From: Zeimonas arvi
GTDB lineage: Bacteria > Pseudomonadota > Gammaproteobacteria > Burkholderiales > Burkholderiaceae_E
Direction of reading: 5' to 3'
NCBI RefSeq assembly: GCF_008039575.1
Contig: NZ_VDUY01000003.1
Location: forward strand, 186,001-250,000
Length of the DNA stretch: 64,000 nt
Below are positions 49,723 to 53,045 of the stretch, piece by piece (position 1 is the first letter of the stretch; each line of letters starts with the position of its first letter). Under the pieces are notes generated by a model that saw only the letters and a program-made list of their open reading frames with translations, ran no database searches and was not told where the DNA came from. The position numbers and the translations under genes are program-made.

Positions 49723-52389
49723 TCAGCTCTGCTCGAACCCGCCGCCGGCGAAGTTCTCGAACTTGGTGTACTGACCCACGAAGGTCAGCCGCACCGTGCC
49801 GATCGGGCCGTTGCGCTGCTTGCCGATGATGATCTCGGCCGTGCCCTTGTCGGGCGAGTCGGGGTTGTAGACCTCGTCGCGATAGATGAACAGGATCACG
49901 TCGGCGTCCTGTTCTATCGCGCCCGAGTTGTGGCTCACGATCCCGTCGGCGAGCCACGAGGCGGGACCGGGCACCGTCAGGTCGAAAACTTCTTCCTCGC
50001 CATCTGCCTCGATCGCCACGACGCGGTCCCAGAACAGGTCCGACTCGGCCCAGGTACGCAGCGCGTCGTCGTCGAGCAGCTCGGCGTAGTGGCCCAAGGT
50101 GGCACGCGACGGCGCGAAGCGGAAGTGCGAACTGCCGCCATACGAGGTGCCGCGCAGCGAAGCCATTTCACGTTGCGTGACCCCGCGATCGCCCATGACC
50201 GCGCGCACCTGCGTGAAGAGTTCTCGCGGCAACGTGTCGACGTTCGCGTTCGCCCGCGGCAGCAGCGCATCGAGGCGCGCAGCCAGCTGCCGCGCAGGCT
50301 CGGCGCGAGGCCCGAAGGCGCCGACGCTCGAAAGAAATGCTCGCTGCTGCTCGCTGCCCGACACGTCGACATTCCACACCGTCCTGCCGGTGGCGGGCTT
50401 CATCGCCCGAATCCGGGCCACGATCCCGAAGCGCAACAACAGCGCAGCCACGTCGCGCGCAAGCCCCTCGCTCGCGGTCGCGAAATACACGCGGGCCGCA
50501 CCCCGCTGATCGGCGGGGCGCAGATGGATGGAGCCGTCGGTGGCCCACAGGTGGCGCAGCAGCAGCGCAAGCTGGGCGTTCGCAAGCGCGAACGCCTCGG
50601 CCGGGATGCGCTTCTCGTGCGAGCGCTGGCCGAAGATACCGAGCTGGCGCAGCCAGGCATTCACGCCCTTCGGATGCCAGCGGTCACCGTTGCCGGAAAT
50701 GACGAGCTGGTGCCAGTTGCCGCGACCCGCGTGGCGGCTCACCGTGCAGCCGAATGACTCCGCCGCCCGCCTGACGGCCTCGGAGTTCTCCTCGGACGCG
50801 GTCGTGTAGCGCATCGGCTGGCCGGAAAGGTAGCTGCCGTCGCCGATCAGGTGACCGAGCAACACCAGCTGCTCTTCACGCCACGCCGGCGCCATGGATG
50901 GCTCCGGAACGCGCCGCGCGATCGCGACCCTGTCCCCGATCTGCATCTCTCCGACGGTCCGCCAACCCGTGCCGGTGAAGACACGATGCCCCGCCGTGGC
51001 GCGCAGCGAACGGCCGCTGGCCAGCAAGAGCCTGAAGACCGGCTTGCACCCGACCGGCCAGACACGGTCGCTGCGGGCCGCGACGACCCGCTGCGAGGCA
51101 TCCATCGCCAGGACCTCGGGCTCGGTGCCCACGAGGCTCGCGATCGGCGCGCGGCGGCCATTGGCCAGCATGACCAGGGTGTCGCCGGGCACGCATTCAC
51201 GGAGATCGGACATCACCGGCCGCTTGTTCGGCCGCTGCTCGAGCGAGCGGTTGAGCTGCGACAGTGCGATCACCGGGCAGTTCAGCTCCTTGGCCAGCCC
51301 TTTCAGGCCGCGCGAGATCTCGGAGATCTCGGTGGCGCGGTTCTCGCCGGAGGAAGACCCCGCCATCAGCTGCAGGTAGTCGATGATGACCAGGCCGAGC
51401 TGGCCGCACTGGCGCGAAAGCCTCCGCGCGCGAGCGCGCAGCTCGAGCGCGCTGAGCGCCGGCGTCTCGTCGATGAAGAGCTGCGTGTCCTGCATCTTCT
51501 GCATCGCGTTGGTCAGCCGCGGCCAGTCATCGTCGAGCAGCCGTCCGGTGCGCAGCCGCTGCTGGTCGAGCCGTCCGACCGAGCACACCAGGCGCATGGC
51601 CAGTTGCGTGGCGCCCATCTCCATCGAGAAGACCGCCACCGGCAGTCCCTGTTCGACGGCCACGTGCTCGCCGATGTTCAGACTGAATGCGGTCTTGCCC
51701 ATCGACGGGCGACCGGCCACGATGATCAGGTCGCCCTGCTGCAGCCCCGAGGTCATCCGGTCGAGGTCGACGAAGCCGGTCGGCACACCGGTCACGTCGT
51801 TCGGGTTGTTCTGGTTGTAGAGCTCGTCGATGCGCTCGACGACCTTGCCGAGCAGGTCGGGCAGCTGGTGGAAGCCGGCCTGGCCGCGGGCACCCTCCTC
51901 GGAAATCTGGAAGATCTTCGATTCGGCCTGGTCGAGCAGCTGGCGGGTGTCCTTGCCCTGCGGACTCAGCGCCGCCGACGAGATCTCGTCGGCGGTGGTG
52001 ATCAGCCGGCGCAGGATGCCGCGGTCGCGGACGATCTCGGCGTAACGGCGAATGTTGGCCGCCGAGGGCGTCTCCTGGGCCAGCGCGTTCAGGTAGACCA
52101 GCCCGCCCGCCTCGTCGGCCTTGCCGGCCGTCTGCAGCGCCTCGAGCACGGTGACCACGTCGGCCGGCTGGCCGCGCTCGATCAGCCGGGCCACCTGGTG
52201 CCAGATCAGCCGATGGTCGTGGCGATAGAAGTCGTCCTCGCGCAGCACGTCGGCCACGCGGTCGAAGGCGTTGTTGTCGAGCAGCAGCCCGCCGAGCACC
52301 GCCTGCTCGGCCTCGATCGAATGCGGCGGCACGCGCAGCGCGGCGATCTGCGGGTCGAGCGGCGGACGGCTTTCGGAGACTGAGGACAT
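49723..52389 (-). CDS. dnaB: Replicative DNA helicase DnaB with intein
   Basis: Precursor of 888 residues: N-extein 1-398, intein 399-821, C-extein 822-888. The joined exteins give 465 residues, the usual DnaB length. DnaB N-domain (about 17-120), linker, then RecA-like ATPase with Walker A GRPSMGKT (226-233) and VIIDYLQLM (Walker B). The intein interrupts SDLRE | SGAIEQDADV, a strongly conserved DNA-binding loop, so splicing is required for function. Start ATG 52389. It follows the rplI gene, separated by hairpins, as in many betaproteobacteria. Confidence 0.96.
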   Translation of the reverse strand: MSSVSESRPPLDPQIAALRVPPHSIEAEQAVLGGLLLDNNAFDRVADVLREDDFYRHDHRLIWHQVARLIERGQPADVVTVLEALQTAGKADEAGGLVYLNALAQETPSAANIRRYAEIVRDRGILRRLITTADEISSAALSPQGKDTRQLLDQAESKIFQISEEGARGQAGFHQLPDLLGKVVERIDELYNQNNPNDVTGVPTGFVDLDRMTSGLQQGDLIIVAGRPSMGKTAFSLNIGEHVAVEQGLPVAVFSMEMGATQLAMRLVCSVGRLDQQRLRTGRLLDDDWPRLTNAMQKMQDTQLFIDETPALSALELRARARRLSRQCGQLGLVIIDYLQLMAGSSSGENRATEISEISRGLKGLAKELNCPVIALSQLNRSLEQRPNKRPVMSDLRECVPGDTLVMLANGRRAPIASLVGTEPEVLAMDASQRVVAARSDRVWPVGCKPVFRLLLASGRSLRATAGHRVFTGTGWRTVGEMQIGDRVAIARRVPEPSMAPAWREEQLVLLGHLIGDGSYLSGQPMRYTTASEENSEAVRRAAESFGCTVSRHAGRGNWHQLVISGNGDRWHPKGVNAWLRQLGIFGQRSHEKRIPAEAFALANAQLALLLRHLWATDGSIHLRPADQRGAARVYFATASEGLARDVAALLLRFGIVARIRAMKPATGRTVWNVDVSGSEQQRAFLSSVGAFGPRAEPARQLAARLDALLPRANANVDTLPRELFTQVRAVMGDRGVTQREMASLRGTSYGGSSHFRFAPSRATLGHYAELLDDDALRTWAESDLFWDRVVAIEADGEEEVFDLTVPGPASWLADGIVSHNSGAIEQDADVILFIYRDEVYNPDSPDKGTAEIIIGKQRNGPIGTVRLTFVGQYTKFENFAGGGFEQS
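49927..51195 (-). mobile_element. DnaB intein with LAGLIDADG homing endonuclease
   Basis: In-frame element of 423 codons. Splicing residues: Cys1 (CVPGDTLVML), block B ATAGH (66-70), block F VFDLTVPG (403-410) and end ADGIVSHN with His-Asn, followed by Ser+1. Endonuclease motifs: LLGHLIGDGSY (112-122) and LLRHLWATDGSIH (212-224), both with the catalytic aspartate; a helix-turn-helix (VTQREMASLRGTSYGG) lies near 340-354. All expected residues are present, so both splicing and homing look intact. Confidence 0.95.
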
Positions 52390-52592: not shown

Positions 52593-53045
52593 TCAGGCGG
52601 TTTCGCCGATCACCGTCACCTTGATGTTGGCCAGCACGTCGGTGTGCAGAGCCACTTCGACTTCGTACTCGCCGATCGCCTTGAGCGGGCCGTTGGGCAT
52701 GCGCACCATGGCCTTCTCGACCGCGAAGCCCTTCTTCTTCAGGGCCTCGGCGATGTCGAAGTTGCCCACCGAACCGAACAGGCGACCGTCGACACCGGCC
52801 TTCTCGGTGATCTCGACGGCCATGCCCTCGAGCTGCTGGCCCAGCGCCTGGGCGGCAGCGAGCTTGTCGGCCTGGATCTTCTCGAGTTCGGCGCGACGCG
52901 TCTCGAATTCCTGGATCGCGACCTGGGTGGCGCGGCGCGCCTTTCCGGTCGGGATCAGGAAGTTGCGCGCATAGCCGTCCTTCACGCGGACGACGTCGCC
53001 CAGCTGGCCGAGGTTGACGACTTTTTCGAGCAGGATGATCTGCAT
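52593..53045 (-). CDS. rplI: 50S ribosomal protein L9
   Basis: Ribosomal protein of 150 residues: [31 protein letters not shown]-domain (split here by function, residues 1-50), a long connecting helix (about 45-75) and the C-terminal rRNA-binding domain. The length is normal. Last gene of the rpsF-priB-rpsR-rplI operon, 19 bp after rpsR. Confidence 0.97.

Follow-up and report, generated by a model that had tools for sequence, protein, structure and literature searches.

The dnaB gene of Zeimonas arvi raises the question of what kind of element interrupts it, and whether that element belongs to the usual insertion allele of the replicative helicase DnaB or to a separate one. The gene lies on contig NZ_VDUY01000003.1 (assembly GCF_008039575.1) in a stretch of 64,000 nucleotides (positions 186,001 to 250,000 of the forward strand), which as a whole is called the window here. 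In the usual classification of inteins, an allele is defined by a single exact site. The insertion in the window is very probably a full-length homing intein in the only DnaB of the cell, and a member of a distinct register class that lies two residues before the usual site in the motif H4 loop and moves between lineages.

The minus-strand translation of 51195..49927 contained no stop, started with CVPGDTLVML and finished with WLADGIVSHN. The flanking codons were ATG TCC GAT CTC CGT GAA (MSDLRE) on the 5' side and TCG GGC GCG ATA GAA CAG GAC GCC GAC (SGAIEQDAD) on the 3' side. The intein matched the Pfam profiles Intein_splicing (4.9e-16) and LAGLIDADG_3 (6.9e-26, two stretches) and the NCBIfam profiles TIGR01445 (intein_Nterm) and TIGR01443 (intein_Cterm). 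Its AlphaFold2 model had a mean predicted local distance difference test score (pLDDT) of 93.8. The best Foldseek match of the model in the PDB was the TliVMA homing-endonuclease intein (template modelling score, TM, 0.73), and it also matched the PI-PfuI and PI-SceI inteins and the splicing domains of the Ssp and Npu DnaB inteins.

Cys1, the Thr...His of block B (TAGH), the His-Asn end and Ser+1 are the residues of a class 1 intein. The histidine of block F (position F:13) is replaced by Ala412; according to PMC4031507, F:13 is an assisting, less conserved position in class 1 inteins and not a defining one. Class 3 inteins have no Cys or Ser at position 1 and carry Cys at F:4; here Cys1 is present and F:4 is Asp405. 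Two motifs with their aspartates, together with predicted splicing and endonuclease folds, are the features of LAGLIDADG homing endonuclease inteins. Its sequence marks the element as a class 1 intein of full length that carries a predicted double-motif LAGLIDADG homing endonuclease and lies in the motif H4 loop of DnaB. An earlier first-pass annotation, made from the letters of the window, had reported a 423-codon insertion with Cys1, TxxH, HN, Ser+1 and two aspartate-bearing LAGLIDADG motifs, and translation and profiles agreed with it.

The window junction read SDLRE/C...HN/SGAIEQDAD, where slashes mark the splice junctions; the codons on either side of 51195..49927 confirmed the host loop SDLRE/SGAIEQDAD given in that annotation. 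The usual H4 register reads SDLRESG/C...HN/SIEQDAD, that is, two residues later. In the usual allele the insertion follows SG and the third residue of SGx is Ser+1, whereas in the window it follows E and the third place is Ala. A scan with the window intein covered one genome per species (84,980 species), and the best 80 of 106 relatives were kept. Among the 74 loci parsed, 33 read SDLRE/C...HN/SGx and 41 read SDLRESG/C...HN/S, including all 14 parsed cyanobacterial H4 inteins. The first-pass annotation had placed the usual site two residues later, in agreement with these 41 loci, and the junctions confirmed that the window site is not the standard one. The loci not parsed were L054 (SG/C...HN, then an unread base), L079 (C half only, usual register), L080 and L082 (whose junctions place them in other proteins), and L072 and L073, whose C-terminal context was similar to those of L080 and L082.

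A larger set, with loci added from the genus, the family, Acidimicrobiia, viral contigs, a plasmid record and host neighbourhoods, comprised 103 non-identical H4-site inteins, 62 in the usual (SG/S) and 41 in the shifted (E/SG) register; the sampling was centred on the window intein, and 41/103 is no measure of the frequency of the shifted class. Locus L228, whose N end is lost, stands outside this set. In one survey 30 loci were taken from 58 matching genomes, with at most 6 candidates scored per genome. The exact parser covers only the E/SG and SG/S registers, and a third register was not seen in looser junction scans. Shifted and usual inteins aligned across the whole intein, splicing and endonuclease domains included, and the window intein was 35-45% identical to the usual ones.

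The H4-intein tree (66 rows) changed register once (97/98; 96% of 200 bootstrap trees), whereas the DnaB extein tree of 65 of those loci changed it six times. Six changes were found again in a 65-row extein tree from which the site residues and four viral rows were taken out and to which four loci were added. On the host DnaB tree, a single shifted clade was rejected (p value of the approximately unbiased test, p-AU, 5.5e-94). With one change on the intein tree against six on the host tree, the register tracks the intein more than the host, which argues for horizontal movement. Intein and host phylogenies, on whose difference the first-pass annotation had made the novelty of the site depend, are thus not identical.

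A single origin of the shifted register looked firm on the H4-only tree and did not hold on the other trees. The splicing-domain tree (69 rows) had two changes, with L081 (Acidimicrobiia) inside the usual side, and one shifted clade was not rejected there (p-AU 0.279). For the full-length tree, a placement of L081 and L228 with the actinobacterial inteins of the usual register was not rejected (p-AU 0.189). In a 50-row tree that included inteins of other proteins, the shifted inteins fell into a main clade (100/99), L081 with L228 (98/82), and L130; the best tree had three register changes, and supported branches forced at least two.

These trees bear on the possibility that the two registers are separate invasions of adjacent positions by already different inteins, and not one H4 lineage that shifted. 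The enlarged tree placed the phage-like shifted intein L130 outside, so that the shifted label needed its three changes, and the branch uniting the other H4 inteins was weak (83/46) and included L128, a viral intein of another protein. However, a grouping of all H4-site inteins was not rejected (p-AU 0.397), and the main shifted and usual groups stood together, apart from the P-loop inteins tried and from those whose host proteins we take to be dCTP deaminase, DnaE and an RNA-polymerase-like protein. Separate invasions are accordingly considered unlikely, though they retain some weight beside the reading of one family in two registers.

The register matched the host residue at the site. The hosts of the 41 shifted inteins had SGA in 40 cases and SGS in one (L024, from a genome labelled Chloroflexi), and the hosts of the 62 usual inteins had SGS in 62/62. 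An intein in the usual register requires Ser as the third residue of SGx. In SGA hosts that residue is Ala, which leaves the Ser of SG as the only one able to serve as +1. The point made in the first-pass annotation, that an Ala in the +1 position of the usual site would be no nucleophile, was supported. Most likely, Ala at the third place excludes the usual insertion, and an intein can last in an SGA host only if it uses the Ser before; the nucleophile constraint would then explain the register. Another possible source of such a match is co-conversion of flanking codons during homing.

Among the relatives of Albibeggiatoa, intein-free sites were mixed, with 12 SGS, 10 SGA, 1 SGG and 1 SGT (3 of 30 loci unparsed); two SG/S inteins lay in SGS and the single E/SG intein lay in SGA. 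Among the relatives of Wenzhouxiangella (30 loci), the intein-free sites were 24 SGA and 4 SGS, and both shifted inteins lay in SGA. In the first relatives search, the intein-free loci read were SGA in 19/19.

Several points weigh against letting the host residue decide the register of a single family. The usual-register half of the match follows from the chemistry of the +1 nucleophile and was in addition set by the search expression, which leaves the shifted half as the informative one. L024, a shifted intein, sits in a host with SGS, which shows that Ala is no requirement and that SGS hosts are not closed to shifted inteins. Host ancestry accounts for part of the shifted half. A test with independent pairs on the host tree had only four pairs on supported branches, too few for significance, and gave a median p of 0.25. 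The trees disagree on how many register shifts there were and in which direction, and because alternatives survive (p-AU 0.279, 0.189 and 0.397), neither is claimed: the shifted register either arose two or three times, or is older and gave rise to the usual one.

The occurrence of the intein within the genus was patchy. An H4 intein was present in 9 of 18 genomes (one a 153-residue mini-intein), and no DnaB was obtained from one genome. In the other eight the H4 site was empty, as read directly in four (L102-L105) and inferred from adjoining matches in four (G059, G064, G065 and G066), which carry an insertion at the P-loop position instead. The ratio of nonsynonymous to synonymous substitution (dN/dS) in the endonuclease region was 0.08-0.42 and below 1 in 13/13 overlapping, non-independent pairs (12 shifted, 1 usual). 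In a comparison of Electronema L018 with Desulfobulbaceae L020, DNA identity was 95-99% over the intein from about base 250 onwards, whereas it was only 75-82% in the dnaB flank directly upstream; the bins far upstream (40-47%) are not comparable, since L020 has about 370 extra codons before the site. The pattern suggests recent homing or another transfer. Desulfobulbaceae L026 was a mosaic, sharing its N-terminal part and flank with L018, which in turn shares its core with L020; a stretch of L026 near base 1000 was just 43-44% like L018 and L020. The identity comparison of L003 with L089 is not valid, the second locus being on the other strand.

Patchy occurrence, with an empty site in 8/18 genomes of the genus, dN/dS below 1, the tree conflict and a near-identical core with diverged flanks all favour the earlier proposal that homing is the likely means of spread. 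According to the predicted mechanism, the whole precursor would be translated first, Cys1 would attack the Glu(-1)-Cys1 bond, and the N-extein would then move to Ser+1. Asn423 would cyclise, and the exteins would join into an uninterrupted ...SDLRESGAIEQDAD... The endonuclease would cut intein-free dnaB at the site, and repair would copy the intein in, which would move it between lineages. Both splicing and DNA cleavage by the window intein are predictions from its residues and folds.

The opposite view, in which the intein no longer homes and is an old vertical insert with a decaying endonuclease, is rather improbable. Mini-inteins occur in the class (8/41 shifted inteins are shorter than 300 amino acids, aa), and base composition does not mark the intein as foreign, its guanine and cytosine (GC) content of 70% being near that of the N-extein (69%; C-extein 64%). 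Against this, both LAGLIDADG aspartates are kept, dN/dS was below 1 in every pair, the genus occurrence is patchy and the L018 and L020 identities suggest recent transfer in the class. Mini-inteins that keep Cys1 and HN and have no endonuclease were L058 (153 residues), L062 (168), L064 (149), L106 (146), L267 (140) and L307 (138); they fit selection for splicing without homing. Those in the shifted register included L106 (G043), L307 (G847) and L267 (G805), and L106 and L307 lay on long branches.

By record titles, the carriers of the shifted register belonged to Pseudomonadota, Thermodesulfobacteriota, Myxococcota, Rokuibacteriota, Actinomycetota and Chloroflexota, with gammaproteobacteria and Desulfobulbia among them; several of these labels come from metagenome bins, for which errors are possible. 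Two phage-like IMG/VR contigs (L123 and L130) had a shifted intein in a DnaB adjoining genes like those for replication initiation or helicase loading. The L123 intein was 61% identical to the window intein (from a search in which the best 80 of 103 relatives were kept). Four further viral contigs (L124-L127) had the usual register. A protein search of phage records gave two partial matches covering 51-59% of the query, and one of plasmid records gave two matches, of which that of Nocardia (L249) reads SG/S. In a random phylum sample of 398 genomes, with at most four first-look candidates scored in each, the window's own genome alone matched at E 1e-20. Phage DnaB genes are a plausible vehicle for intein movement. 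Given six phylum labels and two phage-like contigs, the class is not betaproteobacterial. Of the proposed distinct class in betaproteobacteria, the distinctness stood, as a register with its own intein lineages, and the restriction to betaproteobacteria did not; the window allele is genuine and distinct in its insertion site, and the element itself is of a known kind.

The two registers also differed in block F. The F:13 histidine was found in 60/62 usual inteins and 1/41 shifted ones (58/60 and 1/39 in a smaller set), and its substitutes in the latter were Ala (31), Ser (6), Glu (2) and Gly (1). The -1 residue is Glu in the window intein and Gly in the usual register; it was fixed by the search expressions (E or D; G), hence counts of -1 residues carry no independent weight. 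According to PMC6333167, efficient splicing of the wild-type Ssp DnaB intein, tested as a split intein with a model C-extein, was seen with Gly(-1) only. Given Glu(-1) and the missing histidine, the two-residue shift probably required catalytic adaptation.

The same residues might be taken to make the intein a conditional regulator of DnaB that splices slowly. The Ssp result, the assisting role of F:13 (PMC4031507) and the response of the Mycobacterium smegmatis P-loop DnaB intein to oxidation (PMC6195587) are in line with such a role, but the H4-site, endonuclease-bearing intein of M. smegmatis spliced fast and showed no response in the same source, and regulation appears quite improbable beside a homing element. 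That the window holds an ordinary H4 intein of the Ssp and Mtu type, its offset a mere ambiguity of alignment, is scarcely credible despite the end-to-end alignment with usual-register inteins at 35-45% identity and the whole-length match to NF005852 (replicative DNA helicase; intein at model positions 398-825; 388 bits), because Cys1 and His-Asn fix the ends and E/C...HN/SGA is unambiguously different from SG/C...HN/S.

A joint reading of these results is offered tentatively, at somewhat less than even confidence, in which one host residue decides the site of the intein. The DnaB H4 family would have split into two alleles 6 base pairs (bp) apart, with the register changed more than once; one allele would serve SGS hosts and the other SGA hosts. 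The shifted allele would have become adapted to splicing with Glu(-1) in the absence of the block F histidine, and this natural Glu(-1)-tolerant DnaB intein would be carried across phyla partly by phages. Homologous inteins 6 bp apart, in registers that match whether the host can supply the +1 nucleophile, open up the question of how the precise insertion point of a homing element within an essential gene can change. The class in the shifted register further supplies natural splicing domains with Glu at -1, as predicted from sequence, and the short mini-inteins L058, L062, L064, L106, L267 and L307 offer starting points.

The coordinates of the features are listed in the table. One full DnaB match was found in the genome, the sole other match being 25% identical over 124 query residues, so the cell should depend on splicing. 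Beyond rplI lies a gene for a single-strand-binding protein (PF22657), presumably PriB-like. The neighbourhood of dnaB is an ordinary chromosomal setting.

Features of the interrupted dnaB gene and its neighbour in the window.
Feature	Coordinates	Strand	Basis or remark
dnaB with in-frame intein	49723..52389	-	TIGR00665 DnaB 7.2e-173; precursor 888 aa, exteins summed 465 aa
dnaB start and stop	first ATG of reading at 52389; stop 49723-49725	-	
N-extein, last residues MSDLRE (Glu at -1)	51196..52389	-	
C-extein, first residues SGAIEQDAD	49726..49926	-	Ser+1 at 49924-49926
Intein, 423 codons, Cys1 to Asn423	49927..51195	-	translation, Pfam and NCBIfam profiles, AlphaFold2 model
Block B TAGH, residues 67-70	50986..50997	-	H70 invariant in 30-row intein alignment
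Predicted homing endonuclease region, about residues 101-378	50062..50895	-	Pfam LAGLIDADG_3, two stretches
First LAGLIDADG motif LLGHLIGDG, residues 112-120, D119	50836..50862	-	D119 invariant in 30-row alignment
Second LAGLIDADG motif LLRHLWATDG, residues 212-221, D220	50533..50562	-	D220 invariant in 30-row alignment
Block F EEEVFD, residues 400-405, Asp405 = F:4	49981..49998	-	alignment
Ala412, where usual DnaB H4 inteins have the block F histidine (F:13)	49960..49962	-	alignment
His422-Asn423, C-terminal splice junction	49927..49932	-	HN in 99/99 parsed inteins
rplI (ribosomal protein L9)	52593..53045	-	Ribosomal_L9_C 2.7e-27; next gene upstream of dnaB

Other inteins were met in the course of the analysis. 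L310, L311 and L312 (G046, G055 and G066, of the window's family or genus) were full-length inteins about 30% identical to that of the window, with the junction LGK/C...HN/STYARCG in what we take to be dCTP deaminase, and they formed their own branch in the 50-row tree. The nearest relative by intein identity, L313 (G057:C2:229500-234500, a genome of the window's genus), had two DnaB inteins: a P-loop intein without Cys1 (GK/A...HN/TAFS) alongside a shifted H4 intein. M. smegmatis DnaB carries its inteins in the same pair of regions. L043 (labelled Actinomycetota), L221, L222 and L227, the last three from a class search around L081, had an H4 intein and a second endonuclease-bearing P-loop insertion ending HN/[ST]; that of L043, the one read from its start, begins with Cys, and inteins lacking Cys1 are therefore not the sole occupants of the P-loop site.

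A site-letter scheme for intein insertion sites is given in PMC5784728. The label 'dnaB-b' that the first-pass annotation gave to the H4 site conflicts with PMC6195587, which uses 'a' for the H4 site and 'b' for that in the P-loop. A literature search that took in the accessible parts of PMC6195587, PMC5050341, PMC10643990, PMC5784728, PMC8529194, PMC4031507 and PMC6333167, and lay outside supplements, InBase and most subscription papers, turned up no account of a DnaB intein in motif H4 that lies two residues before the usual one.

Compared with known systems, the class 3 DnaB inteins of the P-loop ('site b', as in M. smegmatis DnaBi1) share the host protein with the window intein and differ in their site and in having no Cys1. 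The M. smegmatis DnaBi2 and M. tuberculosis DnaB inteins are, like the window intein, class 1, endonuclease-bearing and in motif H4 (PMC6195587). The G-1V mutant of DnaBi2 described there implies Gly(-1), unlike the Glu of the window, the comparison being one of descriptions. The Ssp and Npu DnaB inteins (1MI8, 6FRG and 4O1R) have the same class 1 residues, and the window intein was 32-33% identical to the solved splicing domains. The SG/S DnaB inteins read here have the same host protein and loop as the window intein, and their splicing domains and, in full-length members, endonuclease domains align with it. Unlike them, the window intein lies two residues earlier with Glu and not Gly at -1, and the shifted class has Ala, Ser, Glu or Gly for the block F histidine in 40/41 inteins.

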